From: Euzebya rosea
GTDB lineage: Bacteria > Actinomycetota > Nitriliruptoria > Euzebyales > Euzebyaceae
Direction of reading: 5' to 3'
NCBI RefSeq assembly: GCF_003073135.1
Contig: NZ_PGDQ01000013.1
Coordinates: forward strand, 62,001 to 126,000
Length of the DNA: 64,000 bases
The position numbers and the translations under genes are program-made. How positions within the stretch are numbered: position 1 is the first letter of the stretch; the number at the start of each line of letters is the position of its first letter. Shown here piece by piece: positions 51,454-58,467 of the stretch. A model generated the notes under the pieces. It had not been told where the DNA came from. It worked only from the letters and a program-made list of their open reading frames with translations, and did not search any database.

Positions 51454-51509
51454 GCTTGAGGTGGTCGAGAGGTGACGGGCGGTGACCCGTGAGGAGCCGA
51501 CCGCACAGT
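51454..51509 (+). promoter_or_regulatory. triple-repeat operator and -10 for the TasA-like operon (site A)
   Basis: Eight-base units GCTTGAGG (51454), TCGAGAGG (51465) and CCGTGAGG (51487) lie at offsets 0, 11 and 33. Nine bases after the last is CACAGT (51504-51509), a -10-like hexamer. The geometry is identical at 53559 and 56484. A further GCTGGAGG at 51432 is one more 22-base step upstream. Confidence 0.65.
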
Positions 51510-51548
51510 GCGTGATGTCACACACCACAGACCCCAAGGAGACACCCC

Positions 51549-52235
51549 ATGACCCCCTCGTCCACCGCTCCCTCGTCCACCGCCCGCTCGTCCACCGTCA
51601 GCCCGTCCGCCGCGCACCCCGCCGCCGTCCGCCAGCGTCGTGAGCGCATCCTGCTGAGCGGCCTCCTGCTGGTCCTCGCACTGATGCTGTTCGGCGCCGG
51701 CGCGTCGGCCATGTTCACCGCCTCGACCGCCGGCACCACGTCGGTCGCCTCCGGCACCGTCGTGCTGGACCTCGGCGCGGACGGCACCGCCGCCAACCGC
51801 CTGTCCATGGACGCCGCCAACATCGCGCCCGGGGACATCGTCGAACGTGCAGTCGACGTCATCAACAGCGGCACGCTGGACCTCTCGCAGCTGACGCTGA
51901 CCACGTCGGCCTCTCGCTCCTCCCTGCTGGACACCGACACCGCCGACGGCCTGCAGATGACCGTCCGTGGCTGCTCGATCCCGTGGACGGAACGCAGCGT
52001 CGAGAACGGCTTCGCGTACTCCTGCGCTGGTGCCACCAGCACGCTCGTCAGCCCGCGCCCCGTCATCGGCACCGACATGGACCTCTCGGCCACCGCCGCC
52101 ATCACCGCGGGGGAGACCGCACACCTGGCCATCGAGCTGGTCCTGCCGGAGACGGCCGGCAACGAGTTCCAGGGCCAGACCACGACCGTGGACTACGTGT
52201 TCGACGCCGTCCAGCGGACCGCCGAGCGCCGGTAG
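51549..52235 (+). CDS. TasA/camelysin-like secreted protein
   Basis: A 228-residue protein with a Ser/Thr-rich basic N-terminus, a hydrophobic signal (ILLSGLLLVLALMLFGAGASA) and then MFTASTAGTTSVASGTVVLDL, the pattern of SipW-processed TasA/CalY proteins. The rest is a beta-rich domain with a cysteine pair. Such proteins form matrix fibres or coat the cell. The next gene is a SipW-type signal peptidase. AAGGAG lies 6 bases before ATG 51549, and the promoter carries the triple-repeat operator. A strong hairpin follows the stop. Confidence 0.75.
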   Translation: MTPSSTAPSSTARSSTVSPSAAHPAAVRQRRERILLSGLLLVLALMLFGAGASAMFTASTAGTTSVASGTVVLDLGADGTAANRLSMDAANIAPGDIVERAVDVINSGTLDLSQLTLTTSASRSSLLDTDTADGLQMTVRGCSIPWTERSVENGFAYSCAGATSTLVSPRPVIGTDMDLSATAAITAGETAHLAIELVLPETAGNEFQGQTTTVDYVFDAVQRTAERR

Positions 52236-52242
52236 CCAGGAG

Positions 52243-52274
52243 CGCGGGGCCGGACACGGACGTCCGGCCCCGCG
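52243..52274 (+). terminator. strong hairpin between TasA-like and signal peptidase genes
   Basis: A perfect 13-base stem (52243-52255 with 52262-52274) and 6-base loop just after the stop of the TasA-like gene. No T-run follows. It may lower expression of the peptidase gene or protect the upstream mRNA end. Confidence 0.55.
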
Positions 52275-52313
52275 TGCACCCCTTCCCCGACCCGGCCAAT
52301 CCGGAGGTCCCAC

Positions 52314-53558
52314 GTGTCCCGAGCCACCCGAATCCGTGTTCGCCCGACCCAGCTGATGCTGCTCGCCAGCGTCGTCGTCCTCGCCGGCGTCGTCGTGCTG
52401 CAGATGCTCGGCACACATCGCTTCGTGCCCGTGCTGTCGGGCAGCATGTCGGGATACGTCGAGGCAGGGGACGTCAGCGTCCTGACCCCCCTCGACGCGG
52501 CCGACCTCCGGGTCGGCGACGTCATCGCCTTCCACCCGCCCACGCCCGAGGCCGCGCTGACCCTGCACCGCGTGGTCGAGGTCCTCGACGTCGGCGAACG
52601 GCCGGTGGTGCGCACGAAGGGTGACGCCAACGAGCACCCCGACCCGTGGACTGCTCGCCTGGACGGCCCCGAGCTGTGGCAGGCGACGGGACGCATCCCG
52701 ACGATCGGCCACGCCGTCCTCTGGCTGCAGCATCGGCAGGTCCGGCTGCTCGTCCTGGGCGCGATCGTGGGGCTCCTCGTGCTCGTCGGCATGCGCAGGA
52801 TCTGGGCGCCTGCCGGGGAGGAGGCCCCGGCCGAGCCCGTGGCGGCGGCGCCGTCGACGCGACGACGCCCGGCCGTGGGACCCGGCCTCGCCGTCCTCGC
52901 GGTGCTGTCGGTGGGCATCGTCGGTGTCGCCGGCGGACTGCGGCCCGGCAGCGCCGCCTTCACCGATCGGACCGACGGAGGGACGACCGTGGGCACGACA
53001 TCGGTCAGCCCGCCGTCGGACCTGCGTGCCCAGCTGCTCTGCGAGGTCGACGCCCCCACCGCCGTCCGGCTGACGTGGACGCCGTCATCCGGCATGGGCC
53101 TCGTCGGCCAGGAGGTGTGGCGTCGCCCCCTCGACGGCAGCGCGGTGCTGGTCGCCACGGTGGGCCCCGACGCTGCGTCGCACGACGACGTGCTCGTGGA
53201 CACCCTGCTCGGCACCTCGATCACCTGGGTCGTGCGTGCCGTCAGCGAGGGATGGACCTCCGACTTCACCAACGCGGCCTCGTTGCTGGACACCTGTGAG
53301 CCGGACCCCCTGCCGACTGACGTCCCCCTGCCCGGGCCGACGCCGGACCCGACCCCGGAGCCGACGCCGGAGCCCACGCCGGAGCCGACGCCGGAGCCCA
53401 CGCCGGAACCGACGCCGGAGCCGACGCCGGAGCCGACCCCGACGCCGGAGCCGACCCCGACGCCAGCGCCCGAGCCGACCCTCGAGCCGGCGCCCGATCC
53501 GTGCAAGAACCTGCCGCCCGGCGCCCAGGCCCCGGGCAAGTGCAGGGACCCGCAGTGA
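52314..53558 (+). CDS. SipW-type signal peptidase fused to TasA-like signal, beta domain and PTPE repeats
   Basis: A 414-residue protein. Residues 1-165 are a type I signal peptidase of the SipW/archaeal type: membrane helix 14-33, Ser44 in SGSMSG, His85 in TLHRVV where bacterial enzymes have Lys, the KGDANE aspartate, and a second helix near 143-160. A third hydrophobic stretch (188-208) followed by [14 protein letters not shown] resembles the substrate signal of TasA/camelysin. A fibronectin-like beta domain (about 235-330) and a proline-rich tail of PTPE repeats follow, ending with two cysteines. The reading frame is continuous. GTG 52314 is preceded by GGAGGT at 5 bases. Confidence 0.8.
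53338..53500 (+). repeat. 12-bp tandem repeat encoding PTPE
   Basis: About nine 12-base units of the type CCGACGCCGGAG, with variants later in the run, encode a PTPE/PTPT spacer near the C-terminus of the signal peptidase fusion. Copy number is likely to vary between strains. Confidence 0.8.
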
Positions 53559-53614
53559 TCTTGAGGTTGTCTTGAGGAAACGGGGACGGGGCCGTGAGGA
53601 CCCCTGCCTACCGT
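53559..53614 (+). promoter_or_regulatory. triple-repeat operator and -10 for the lipoprotein-kinase operon (site B)
   Basis: TCTTGAGG (53559), TCTTGAGG (53570) and CCGTGAGG (53592), offsets 0, 11 and 33, then 9 bases and the -10 TACCGT (53609-53614). Transcription should start near 53621, before ATG 53665. Confidence 0.7.
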
Positions 53615-53664
53615 CCTCCTCGACGGGGGAGCACCGGGCTCCCGACCCCATCGAGGAGGACGAC

Positions 53665-54255
53665 ATGACGACCACACGACCCACGGCGCTGGCCGCCATC
53701 ACGATCGCCCTGTGCATCCTGGCGACGGCGTGCACGACCGCAACCGACCCCGACCCCGTGGCGGACCGGGGCTACGAGCGGATCACCGAGGCCGCCATCG
53801 GACCCGGGGAGGCGATCCCCGCACCGACCGGCGATGTCGTGCTGACCATCACCGGCGCCATCACGACCACCAACGTCGACGGCGTCCTGGCCCTCGACAT
53901 GGACACGCTCGAGTCGCTCGGACTGGTGAGCTACGAGGTCGACGACGACCAAGCGGAGGGACGCCGTGTGATGTTCACCGGGGTCCTGCTCAGCGACCTG
54001 CTCGCCGCGGCCGGGATCGCGGAGGATGCCGAGGTCCTGGAGATGACCGCCCTCAACGACTACGTGGTCGACGTCCCCGTCGCCGACGCAGAGGCGTCGC
54101 CGGTGATGGTCGCCACGATGTCCGACGAGGACCGCATGCCCGTGTCCAACTACGGCCCGACCCGTCTCGTGTACCCCTACGACAGCCACGACCTCAGCCC
54201 CACCATCCACGACCCCCGGTGGATCTGGCAGCTGGCCTCCATCGACGTCCGCTGA
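53665..54255 (+). CDS. lipoprotein with molybdopterin-oxidoreductase-like fold
   Basis: A 196-residue lipoprotein (signal ending ILATAC, Cys near residue 21). The domain shows the pattern of the small molybdopterin-binding fold: VVLTITGAI, LDMDTLESLGLVSY, GVLLSDLLAAAGI, and a final Trp/Leu strand. No cysteine occurs in the mature domain, so the molybdenum ligand of true enzymes is missing and the fold is probably a binding or sensing module. GAGGAGGA precedes ATG 53665. The sensor kinase starts 2 bases after its stop, so it is a likely input partner of that kinase. Confidence 0.7.
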   Translation: MTTTRPTALAAITIALCILATACTTATDPDPVADRGYERITEAAIGPGEAIPAPTGDVVLTITGAITTTNVDGVLALDMDTLESLGLVSYEVDDDQAEGRRVMFTGVLLSDLLAAAGIAEDAEVLEMTALNDYVVDVPVADAEASPVMVATMSDEDRMPVSNYGPTRLVYPYDSHDLSPTIHDPRWIWQLASIDVR

Positions 54256-54257
54256 CC

Positions 54258-56489
54258 ATGCACGGCCCGAGATCCAGCCCCGAGCGCGCGCCCCGGCTCT
54301 ACGGACGAGCGTTCGCCGCGGTCGTCGCCGGCCTGCTGATCAGCATCGGCTTCGTCGGTGTGGCGTTGCTGGAGCAGAACAGCGCGCTGTCGGGGCAGCT
54401 CGGCGCGGTTGACCCCATCGTCAACGGCAACGTCCGCGTACTGAGCCAGACCCAGCGCGAGCTGCTCCGCCTGGACGCGCTGATCGCCTCGGGGAACCCG
54501 GACCGAGAGCTGGTCCGGTTCCACGCAGACCTGGTGACCCAACGGATCAGGGAGGCGGGGCTGTCCTATCAGATCAACACCCTCGGCAGCCCGGAGCTGC
54601 TGGCCCAGTCCGGCACGCTCGGCCTCATCTGGACCTCCCGGGCCGAACCCCTGCTCGACGGGGCAGTCGACGGGAGCCCCACCGCACGGGCCGAGCTCAG
54701 GGCGCTGATCGACGAGATCGAGCTGGGCTTCAACCGGCTGGTCAGCGAAGCGGAGATCAACCGTCGCTTCAACGCCGTGGAGGCCAACACCGCGACGTCG
54801 GAGGTGCTGGGCAGGACCCGAGGGGTCCTCGTCGGTGGTGGCGTCAGCGTGGTGCTGTTGCTGGCCGGTGCTGGCCTCGCTGGCCTCGGCTTCGTCCGCT
54901 TCGACCGGCAACGGGCTCGGACGGCCCAGCTGATGTCGGAGCTCAACGACGAGATGCGCATCCTGTCCGCCGTGGCCAGCCACACCAACGCCATGGTGGT
55001 CATCACCGACGCCGACGGCGTCACCACCTGGGTCAACGACGCGTTCGTCGAGTCGACCGGCTATCCCGCAGAGGCCATCGTCGGCCGACGTCCGGGGGAC
55101 GTGCTGCAGGGCCCCGAGACCGACCCGGACACGGTGGCCCGCATGGCCCGTCACGTGTCCGCGGGAGAGGCGTTCACCTGCGAGGTCGTCAACTACTCCG
55201 CCGACGGGGTGCCCTACTGGGTCCGCATCGAGGTCCAGCCGGTCACCGATGACCACGGGACGCTCGTCAACTTCATCGCCGTGGAGTCCGACATCACCGC
55301 CGACCGCGAGGCACAGCGCCGCCTGGAACGGGCGAAGGAGGTCGCGGAGGAGGTCGCCACGGCCAAGTCCAGCTTCCTCGCGACGATGAGCCACGAGATC
55401 CGCACGCCGCTGAACGCCGTCATCGGCCTGACCTCGCTGCTGCAGGGCACCCCGCTCGACGACCAGCAACGCGAGTACGTCACGACCGCCGCGTCGTCGG
55501 GCCGGCTGCTGCTCGACGTCATCAACGACATCCTCAGCTGGTCGGCCCTGGGGTTCGATGCGGTCGAGCTCGAACGCCGGCCGTTCAGTCCGCAGGAGCT
55601 CGTCGAGCAGACCGTCGAGCTGGCCCGTGCGAACGCCACAGCCAAGGACATCCGGGTGACCAGCACGGTGGCCGACGACGTCCCGACGACCCTGGAGGGC
55701 GACCCGACCCGGCTTCGCCAGGTGCTGGTCAACATCGTCGGCAACGCGGTGAAGTTCACCGACGAGGGACACGTCGCCGTGCACGTCGACATCGTCGACC
55801 ACGCCCCGGACGAGGCCACCGTCCCCGTGCGGATCCGGGTGGTCGACACCGGGATCGGCATCCCCGCGGACCAGGTCGATCGGCTCTTCCTGCCCTTCAG
55901 CCAGGCCGATGCCTCGACGACGAGGAGGTACGGCGGCACCGGCCTCGGGCTGGCCATCAGCAACGACCTGGTGGCGCTCATGGGCGGTCGGATCGACGTC
56001 GAAAGCACCCCGGGGACGGGGACCGAGGTCGTGATCCAGCTGGACCTCCCCGTCGGCCGGGACGCGTCGCCGGGACTGGCGTCGACCGCCGAGGTGGACG
56101 CCCCGCCGTCAGCCGACCTCAGGGTGCTGCTGGTCGAGGACGATCCGGTCAACCAGATGGTGGCGTTCCACATGCTGGACCGGCTCGGGTTGACCGCCGA
56201 CGTGGCCGACAACGGACAGGCCGCCCTCGAGGCGGTCCACCGTTGCGACTACGACGTGGTGCTCATGGACGTGCACATGCCGGTCATGGACGGGCCGACC
56301 GCAGCACGGCACATCCGGCAGGAGCTGCCGGCGGCCCGGCAGCCCACGATCGTGGCGATGACGGCCAACGCCATGCCCGGCGACCGCGAACGACTCCTCG
56401 CCGCGGACATGGACGACTACGTGGCCAAGCCGGTCCGCCTCGGCGACCTGGCCACGACCCTGCGTGCGGTGGGAGCCACCCAGTCGTGA
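54258..56489 (+). CDS. hybrid sensor histidine kinase with PAS and receiver domains
   Basis: A 743-residue membrane kinase. Membrane helix 16-37, an extracytoplasmic helical sensor domain (40-188), helix 190-213, a PAS domain (about 235-350) and a HisKA domain with SHEIRTPLN (H379) follow in order. The HATPase domain then has NIVGNAVKF, DTGIGIP and GGTGLGLAI, and the receiver domain has D671 in VLMDVHMP and a late Lys in AKP. All phosphotransfer residues are intact. Phosphate would pass to the HPt protein at 58102 and on to a receiver. It follows the lipoprotein gene by 2 bases. Confidence 0.93.
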   Translation: MHGPRSSPERAPRLYGRAFAAVVAGLLISIGFVGVALLEQNSALSGQLGAVDPIVNGNVRVLSQTQRELLRLDALIASGNPDRELVRFHADLVTQRIREAGLSYQINTLGSPELLAQSGTLGLIWTSRAEPLLDGAVDGSPTARAELRALIDEIELGFNRLVSEAEINRRFNAVEANTATSEVLGRTRGVLVGGGVSVVLLLAGAGLAGLGFVRFDRQRARTAQLMSELNDEMRILSAVASHTNAMVVITDADGVTTWVNDAFVESTGYPAEAIVGRRPGDVLQGPETDPDTVARMARHVSAGEAFTCEVVNYSADGVPYWVRIEVQPVTDDHGTLVNFIAVESDITADREAQRRLERAKEVAEEVATAKSSFLATMSHEIRTPLNAVIGLTSLLQGTPLDDQQREYVTTAASSGRLLLDVINDILSWSALGFDAVELERRPFSPQELVEQTVELARANATAKDIRVTSTVADDVPTTLEGDPTRLRQVLVNIVGNAVKFTDEGHVAVHVDIVDHAPDEATVPVRIRVVDTGIGIPADQVDRLFLPFSQADASTTRRYGGTGLGLAISNDLVALMGGRIDVESTPGTGTEVVIQLDLPVGRDASPGLASTAEVDAPPSADLRVLLVEDDPVNQMVAFHMLDRLGLTADVADNGQAALEAVHRCDYDVVLMDVHMPVMDGPTAARHIRQELPAARQPTIVAMTANAMPGDRERLLAADMDDYVAKPVRLGDLATTLRAVGATQS

Positions 56490-56539
56490 GGTGATCTTGA
56501 GGATCCGTCCGCATGGGCTTGAGGCCCCCCGCGTACACC
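56484..56539 (+). promoter_or_regulatory. triple-repeat operator and -10 for the receiver-EAL gene (site C)
   Basis: TCGTGAGG (56484, overlapping the kinase stop), TCTTGAGG (56495) and GCTTGAGG (56517), offsets 0, 11 and 33. Nine bases later is TACACC (56534-56539), with ATG 56547 7 bases further, so the mRNA is probably leaderless. Confidence 0.65.
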
Positions 56540-56546
56540 TTGGACC

Positions 56547-58109
56547 ATGATCACGGCACCTTCCCCCGACCGCGCCCGCACCGGGTGCGTCCTGGTCGTC
56601 GAGGACGACCCGACCCAACGCCTCACCTACGCCGCGATGGCCGGACTCACCGGCCTGGACGTCCTGGACTTCCCCGACGCCGAGTCGGTCATCGCACACC
56701 TCGACACCGCCGACGACGCCGAGGTCGCCCTGATGGTCCTCGACGTCGACCTCGGTACGGGCAGCGGCCTCGACGTCCTGCGGTGGGCTCGCGGCCGACG
56801 GCAGCTGGCCACGGTGCCGGTGATCCTGCTGACGGGACACGACGACGTCGACGCCCGCGTGGCGGGGCTCGGTGCCGGGGCCAACGACTACGTCGGCAAG
56901 CCCGTCCATCCCCGCGAGCTACGAGCACGCATTGATGCCCACCTGCGCACGACCACCTCGTGGAACACCGTGCTGCAGGACGACCTCACCCGCCGTGCGG
57001 CCCTCGGCGAGGCCGTCGCCGCGGCGGCCGTGGACGCCGGGCCCGAACGGGTTCGCGACGTCATCGAGGCGCTCGTCGCCGACCTGCCCGGGGCGCGACG
57101 AGCCATCGTCGTCCCGCTGACCGCCGCCGGGACCGACGCCGCCACCGGCGCCGGACGCGACGACGGCGCCGTCACCGCCGCCGTGCTGGCCCACCACCGC
57201 CAGCAGGGGGCCTTCGTGTTCGCCCACGACGACCGGTCCCTGGCCTGCGCCCCGCTCGGCATCGGGGACCGCACGGGTGGGCTGCTGCTCGTGGAGCGCG
57301 ACAGGAGTTCCGGTGTGTCCGCGGACCGGCTGCTGGCATCGTGCATCGATGCGGCCACGGTCATCGCGCCGGTGCTGGCCGAGCACGTGCTGGGCCCGAG
57401 CGCCCTTGCCGTCACCCATGACCGGATCAGCCGGATCATCGAGTCGAGCGCACACAAGCCCGTGTTCCAGCCGATCGTGGACCTCGGGTCGGGCGAGGTC
57501 GTCGGGTACGAGGGGCTGACCAGATTCCCCGACGGACGCCCTGACCTGGTCTTCGCCGACGCGGCCAGGGTCGGGCTGTCTGCGCTGCTCCACCGTGCGA
57601 CCGTCACCTCGATGCTCGATGCCGCCGCGGGACTGCCCGACCACTGCTACGTGGCGATCAACGCCTCGCCCGATGTCGTCGTCGGAGGGCACCTGACCGG
57701 GCTGCTGCCGACGGACCGCGACGTCGTCGTGGAGATCACCGAGCACGACCGGGTCGAGGACTACGACCGCCTCGTCACCGCCGTCCGAGGGCTGGGTCCG
57801 CGGGTTCGCCTCGCCGTGGACGACGCCGGGGCCGGCTACTCCTCCCTCCAGCACATCCTCTCGCTGCGTCCGGACTTGATCAAGCTCGACCGGTCCCTGG
57901 TCGCGGGGTTGCACACCGATCCGGGACAGGAGGCGATGGTGGCGGGGCTCGTGCACTTCGCTGGCCGGACGGGGGCCCGGATCGTCGCGGAGGGCATCGA
58001 GGACGCCGATGAGATGCAGGCTGCCCGGGCCCTGGGCGTGGACTACGGGCAGGGGTACCACCTGGGGCGCCCGGCACCGGTCGGCGAGGCGGCGGTGTCC
58101 CGTGGCTGA
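56547..58109 (+). CDS. receiver-GAF-EAL protein, c-di-GMP phosphodiesterase
   Basis: A 520-residue response regulator. The receiver domain (10-130) has ED at 20-21, phosphoacceptor D66 in VLDVDLG and Lys in GKPVHP. A GAF-like domain (about 150-285) follows. The EAL domain from about residue 300 has EGL (E322) for EAL, INASPD, VEITEHD, VDDAGAGYSS, IKLDRSL, VAEGIED and GQGYHLGRP, so the metal and catalytic residues appear complete. It should lower c-di-GMP when phosphorylated or dephosphorylated. It is preceded by the third triple-repeat operator. Its end overlaps the HPt gene by 8 bases. Confidence 0.92.
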   Translation: MITAPSPDRARTGCVLVVEDDPTQRLTYAAMAGLTGLDVLDFPDAESVIAHLDTADDAEVALMVLDVDLGTGSGLDVLRWARGRRQLATVPVILLTGHDDVDARVAGLGAGANDYVGKPVHPRELRARIDAHLRTTTSWNTVLQDDLTRRAALGEAVAAAAVDAGPERVRDVIEALVADLPGARRAIVVPLTAAGTDAATGAGRDDGAVTAAVLAHHRQQGAFVFAHDDRSLACAPLGIGDRTGGLLLVERDRSSGVSADRLLASCIDAATVIAPVLAEHVLGPSALAVTHDRISRIIESSAHKPVFQPIVDLGSGEVVGYEGLTRFPDGRPDLVFADAARVGLSALLHRATVTSMLDAAAGLPDHCYVAINASPDVVVGGHLTGLLPTDRDVVVEITEHDRVEDYDRLVTAVRGLGPRVRLAVDDAGAGYSSLQHILSLRPDLIKLDRSLVAGLHTDPGQEAMVAGLVHFAGRTGARIVAEGIEDADEMQAARALGVDYGQGYHLGRPAPVGEAAVSRG

Positions 58110-58467
58110 GTCGCCGGTGGCGTACGACGACGCCGGCCTGGTCGCCGAGACGCTCGGGGTCCTCCAGGAGCAGGTCGGTGGGCCGGACGTGGTGTCGATG
58201 ATCGTGACCACGTTCCTCGACGGACTGGCGGGTCGACTGGACGCGCTGGCCGCCGCCGCCACCGCAGGGGACCACGACGGGGTGGGACGGACGGCGCACA
58301 CGCTCAAGTCCGCGGCCGCCCTCGTCGGGCTGCACGGGCTCTCGGCCCGGGCGCAGGCGCTCGAGCTGGCCCCCGCCGACGCCGGCCACCTCGCCGACGT
58401 GCGTGCTGCGCTGCGGGCCTGCACGGCGCCGCTCCGCATGGGCATGGCTGACCTCCGGGCCGGCTGA
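58102..58467 (+). CDS. HPt phosphotransfer protein
   Basis: A 121-residue four-helix histidine phosphotransfer protein with the active motif RTAHTLKSAAALVG (His66). GTG 58102 overlaps the EAL gene end by 8 bases. It supplies the missing link of a phosphorelay from the hybrid kinase receiver to the receiver of the EAL protein or to a regulator elsewhere. Confidence 0.85.
   Translation: MAESPVAYDDAGLVAETLGVLQEQVGGPDVVSMIVTTFLDGLAGRLDALAAAATAGDHDGVGRTAHTLKSAAALVGLHGLSARAQALELAPADAGHLADVRAALRACTAPLRMGMADLRAG

Follow-up and report, generated by a model that had tools for sequence, protein, structure and literature searches.

The window analysed here, a 64,000-nt stretch of Euzebya rosea DNA, contains three neighbouring pairs of genes behind promoters with similar short repeats. 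The question that it raises is whether these repeats are operators of a single kind and, if so, which regulator would read them. The features concerned are as follows:

51454..51494, plus strand: operator A, with units GCTTGAGG at 51454, TCGAGAGG at 51465 and CCGTGAGG at 51487 (1 mismatch genome-wide)
51504..51509, plus strand: promoter A, -10-like hexamer CACAGT, N9 after the last unit
51549..52235, plus strand: Peptidase_M73/TasA-like secreted protein gene, first after A (PF12389, E 3.7e-13)
52314..53558, plus strand: SipW/archaeal-type signal peptidase I gene (TIGR02228, 63.1 bits, cut-off 51.85)
53559..53599, plus strand: operator B, with units TCTTGAGG at 53559, TCTTGAGG at 53570 and CCGTGAGG at 53592 (0 mismatches genome-wide)
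53609..53614, plus strand: promoter B, -10-like hexamer TACCGT, N9 after the last unit
53665..54255, plus strand: lipoprotein-like gene, oxidoreductase molybdopterin-binding fold, first after B (PF00174, E 2e-8)
54258..56489, plus strand: hybrid sensor kinase gene, second after B (domain matches to PAS, HisKA, HATPase and receiver)
56484..56524, plus strand: operator C, with units TCGTGAGG at 56484, TCTTGAGG at 56495 and GCTTGAGG at 56517
56534..56539, plus strand: promoter C, -10-like hexamer TACACC, N9 after the last unit
56547..58109, plus strand: receiver-EAL (c-di-GMP phosphodiesterase-like) gene, first after C (EAL, E 1.4e-41; Response_reg, E 6.2e-20)
58102..58467, plus strand: Hpt (histidine phosphotransfer) gene, which begins before the EAL gene ends (PF01627, E 1.6e-12)

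The repeats lie where the first-pass annotation had placed them (nine of nine units and three of three hexamers). At A, B and C alike, 8-base units stand at 0, +11 and +33 and the -10-like hexamer follows exactly 9 nt past the last unit, and the linkers between units differ among the sites, as had also been reported. The proposed consensus YCKTGAGG holds in a loose form, the first unit of A and the third of C starting with G and the second unit of A having GAG for TGA. A similar qualification applies to the proposal that the last unit replaces the -35 box: no -35 hexamer was found beyond chance level at these promoters, in keeping with the proposal, although the last unit sits inside the -35 to -10 interval.

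Operator B begins directly after the stop codon of the signal peptidase gene, and the first unit of operator C overlaps the stop codon of the hybrid kinase gene. The ATG of the EAL gene is 7 nt downstream of the promoter C hexamer, so that its transcript would be leaderless; such an mRNA would arise at window positions 56534-56549 and likewise at L077 9869-9883, where an in-frame GTG of a Nocardioides lipoprotein gene follows the -10 by 6 nt. The product of 51549..52235 matches the TasA equivalog weakly, far under its cut-off, and a long tail of PEPTP-type repeats is encoded in the signal peptidase gene (window 53300-53500).

Within the 64-kb window, a search at three mismatches without the -10 found 3 matches against 2.2 expected from shuffled windows, a count that is uninformative, and genome-wide and cross-genome tests were therefore used. 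Across the 5.5-Mb genome, B and C, which lie within 3 kb of each other, are the sole exact matches to TGAGG-N6-TGAGG-N17-TGAGG, and 60 relatives have none. The scan of the relatives came up empty because the unit sequence differs there, and their operators came to light only by scanning around the regulator clade described below. When ANNNT was required at the -10 position and up to three mismatches were allowed, with a reversed pattern as control, B matched with no mismatch, A, C and a new site, D, with one each (C having none in the TGAGG-only pattern), and nothing with two; the four matches at three mismatches are at background level (5 in all for the control). In this genome-wide scan A, B and C, together with D, stand clear of the background.

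The remaining two-mismatch matches in the genome, from the search without the -10, lie mostly inside genes or repeats, and one is a different, CTCAGAG-type site. In three species of the genus (L012 1501-1538, from G000 C6; G003 C1:5004226; L043, from G002), repeats of the CTCAGAG type stand before a gene for a small secreted protein and adjoin an aroQ-like gene; they look like an operator that serves some other OmpR-type regulator. In a same-genus genome, four TGAGG/TGAGA units stand in series at exact 11-bp steps (L045 1501-1538; G003 C1:1885069). A repeat scan at strict 6-of-7 identity was unsuccessful. A weak site, E (CCGCGAGG AAA CCTTGAGG N14 CGGTGAGC; L016 17500, minus strand), is flanked by the gene of the C3 HisKA-HATPase-Hpt kinase and a gene for a membrane protein; it has no -10 at +50 and was not counted as part of the regulon.

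The annotation had noted that no DNA-binding regulator is encoded in the locus, and indeed the whole contig that holds the window has no gene for a Trans_reg_C protein. Site D (TCTTGAGG AAG CCGTGAGG N14 GGGTGACG N9 CACAGT; L016 11688, minus strand) points elsewhere. Its third unit (GGGTGACG) is weak; its 9-nt spacing is that of A-C and its hexamer is identical to that of A. It begins about 30 nt past the stop codon of the gene given in the next line, and two STAS genes lie downstream of the site:

contig C3:319720-320427 (L016:11718-12428), minus strand: C3RR gene, OmpR/PhoB-type response regulator (Response_reg + Trans_reg_C)

C3RR, one of about ten full-length OmpR-family regulators in the genome, combines a receiver and a winged-helix domain with an operator-type site adjoining its gene. 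It scores below the cut-offs for PhoB (191.5 bits, cut-off 296.2) and for the heavy-metal regulators CzcR/SilR/CopR (TIGR01387; 155 bits, cut-off 279.2). Its nearest solved relatives by sequence are MtrA, PrrA and RegX3 of mycobacteria (MtrA, E 6.2e-52), and its 216 bits against the MtrA equivalog cut-off of 300 indicate that it is not MtrA.

In a maximum-likelihood tree, C3RR groups with the L077 regulator and with regulators of G001, G045, G059, G056 and G011 (clade support 100/98), and all other regulators of its own genome fall outside. Around these clade genes the spaced units recur as CTTGAnn at 0, +11 and +33/34, followed by 9 nt and then [T/C]ANNNT; C3RR itself lies inside the supported clade and has CTTGAnn operators at 0/+11/+33 nearby. 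With a full-score threshold of at least 19, we counted 12 matches in 94 kb around clade members drawn from 396 Actinomycetota genomes, not all of these matches independent because some come from near-identical genomes (L130-L132; three matches), and 10 in a second set of family loci, besides 3 in the window (A, B and C) and 1 in the C3 locus (D). There were none in 233 kb of control loci, which included seven other OmpR-regulator loci of the same genome (L099-L105), and none in 20 trials with shuffled flanks. CTTGANG was the best of 180 letter orders, beating 179 others, and the second best, GTTGANC, corresponds to the unit in its CTTGATC form.

The third unit was found only at 33 or 34 (with one stray at 44), and the distance of 9 nt to the -10 accounted for 12 and 10 matches in the two sets, the next best distance, 11 nt, for 5 and 4. 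In the scored set, part of the -10 signal comes from the score itself, a bias from which a two-unit scan blind to the -10 is free; there ANNNT stood at +50 in 12 of 32 matches, A and B among them, and at no other offset in more than 4. A distance to the -10 that is kept with the third unit at either 33 or 34 is what an RNA polymerase contact replacing the -35 box would require.

A unit at +22 is also present in several relatives (L092, L093, L077, L122, L124 and L127), so that the ancestral array probably had four half-sites for two dimers. Information content is low in the columns at +22 (0.1-0.5 bits); in units 1 and 2 the CTTGA core has 1.4-2.0 bits, and unit 3 has 0.8-1.4. The array underlying the present sites probably comprises four half-sites spaced 11 bp apart, of which that at +22 is degenerate. 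A variant geometry, CTTGAcc at 0, 11 and 31, occurs near a clade regulator at L126 1438 (minus) and 3257 (plus); the minus-strand copy has a further CTTGAcc unit at 42, and the variants have no -10 at the usual place.

A counterpart of site B and its genes lies in Nocardioides sp. GY 10127 (L077), which encodes a 53% identical relative of the site-B lipoprotein, the only one found in the species-genome collection, followed by a homologous hybrid kinase (41%). The lipoprotein gene is preceded by a related operator, TCTTGTCG CAA TCTTGCCG CTG CCTTGCGG AGC GCTTCCTG N9 GACCCT, and the reciprocal best hit of C3RR is an OmpR-type regulator about 2 kb away. An upstream site was sought and not found at distant relatives of the fibre and the lipoprotein in other genomes of the class, and the regulon itself is therefore kept only partly, with Nocardioides.

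The arrangement has a close parallel in the Pho box of Escherichia coli PhoB, which consists of 8-bp direct repeats with 3-bp linkers; the last repeat takes the position of the -35, some 10 bp before the -10 (PMC1906773; PMC4971064). The repeat length, the linkers, the distance to the -10 and the regulator family are shared, whereas here the unit is CTTGAGG instead of that of the Pho box, the +22 half-site is degenerate, the targets are not phosphate genes and C3RR falls under the PhoB cut-off. The cyanobacterial SphR box is made up of three or more 8-bp direct repeats separated by 3-bp linkers and has the unit CTTAACCT (PMC1906773), which resembles CTTGAnn; its repeats are contiguous, whereas one position is skipped here, and SphR serves the phosphate regulon in a different phylum. 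The PmrA (BasR) box, with head-to-tail CTTAAG-N5-XTTAAT half-sites at an 11-bp step (PMC3973317), shares orientation and step with the present operator but has two half-sites against three or four, and CTTAA against CTTGA; C3RR is nearer MtrA than PmrA. A search of the open-access literature returned no description of this motif. The C3RR clade and its operator are apparently an undescribed, PhoB/SphR-like regulator-operator pair found across the phylum Actinomycetota.

The annotation's reading of the sites as OmpR/PhoB-type operators is supported by site D beside an OmpR-type gene, by the clade-wide geometry and by the absence of both control matches and a -35 box; the direct repeats keep the 11-bp step of that type (0, +11 and +33), and the last one lies at its expected distance of about 10 bp from the -10 (a fixed 9 nt). 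We consider it likely, from the sequence comparisons above, that one OmpR/PhoB-family response regulator, most likely C3RR, uses A, B and C as class II activator operators. Recognition by another OmpR-family regulator of the genome is unlikely in our judgement: there are other candidates, and 11-bp direct repeats are used by several OmpR-type regulators, but loci L099-L105 are without such sites, only C3RR belongs to the site-carrying clade, and only C3RR has an adjoining site.

A repressor or anti-activation site, rather than an activator operator, appears decidedly improbable. The repeats are near the -10, where a bound protein could block RNA polymerase; against this, the promoters have no -35 hexamer, and the 9-nt spacing is the same whether the third unit stands at 33 or at 34, as in PhoB-type activation. 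That the three sites owe their resemblance to chance in high-GC sequence is scarcely credible: shuffled windows do match equally often at three mismatches without the -10, but the only two exact matches in the genome lie less than 3 kb apart, four sites have no more than one mismatch, and no site has two, when the -10 is included, and the pattern recurs in other genomes with no control matches.

Taking A, B and C as activator operators of C3RR, we can outline how they might work. The four half-sites at 11-bp steps would be occupied by two head-to-tail dimers, with the strong half-sites at 0, +11 and +33 and the +22 one degenerate in this genome. The promoter-proximal dimer, its last half-site 9 nt upstream of the -10, would replace the missing -35 box, and C3RR, phosphorylated by local or C3 kinases, would bind there and recruit RNA polymerase, activating rather than repressing. 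The TasA-like fibre and signal peptidase (A), the lipoprotein and hybrid kinase (B), the receiver-EAL and Hpt proteins (C) and the STAS operon beside C3RR (D) would thereby come under its control, with a possible role in biofilm or c-di-GMP control. A, B, C and D likely form a single C3RR regulon, with the fibre, hybrid-kinase and EAL operons as predicted targets. The grouping of fibre, sensor kinase and EAL protein in one regulon, which the annotation had proposed, gains from site D and from the recurrence of the geometry in the clade; it needs amending in that the kinase gene comes second after B, behind the lipoprotein-like gene.

The regulon appears to have been rewired, since in relatives the sites are found before or near SHOCT, cupredoxin and DUF302 genes (cupredoxin genes also neighbour the clade regulators themselves) and those described here precede fibre, kinase, EAL and STAS genes. 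The recognition helix of C3RR reads SKLRRK against AN/GN-LRRK in the clade; helix and unit both differ from the clade, and the link between C3RR and the operator consequently rests on co-variation. We infer that the change of helix is linked to that of the unit from CTTGACG/ATC to CTTGAGG. It is possible, and we suggest it only tentatively, that the clade pair normally runs SHOCT/cupredoxin promoters and that here the helix went from ANLRRK to SKLRRK in step with a shift of the unit from CTTGACG to CTTGAGG, with rewiring to the TasA-like fibre, a phosphorelay and c-di-GMP breakdown.

In summary, a sequence pattern has been turned into a specific regulon prediction with a nominated regulator, and an operator grammar common across Actinomycetota makes it possible to predict the targets of this regulator clade elsewhere in the phylum. 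Should the regulon in the window be real, it would couple the production of an extracellular fibre to a phosphorelay and to the turnover of c-di-GMP, in an actinobacterial lineage that has been little studied.
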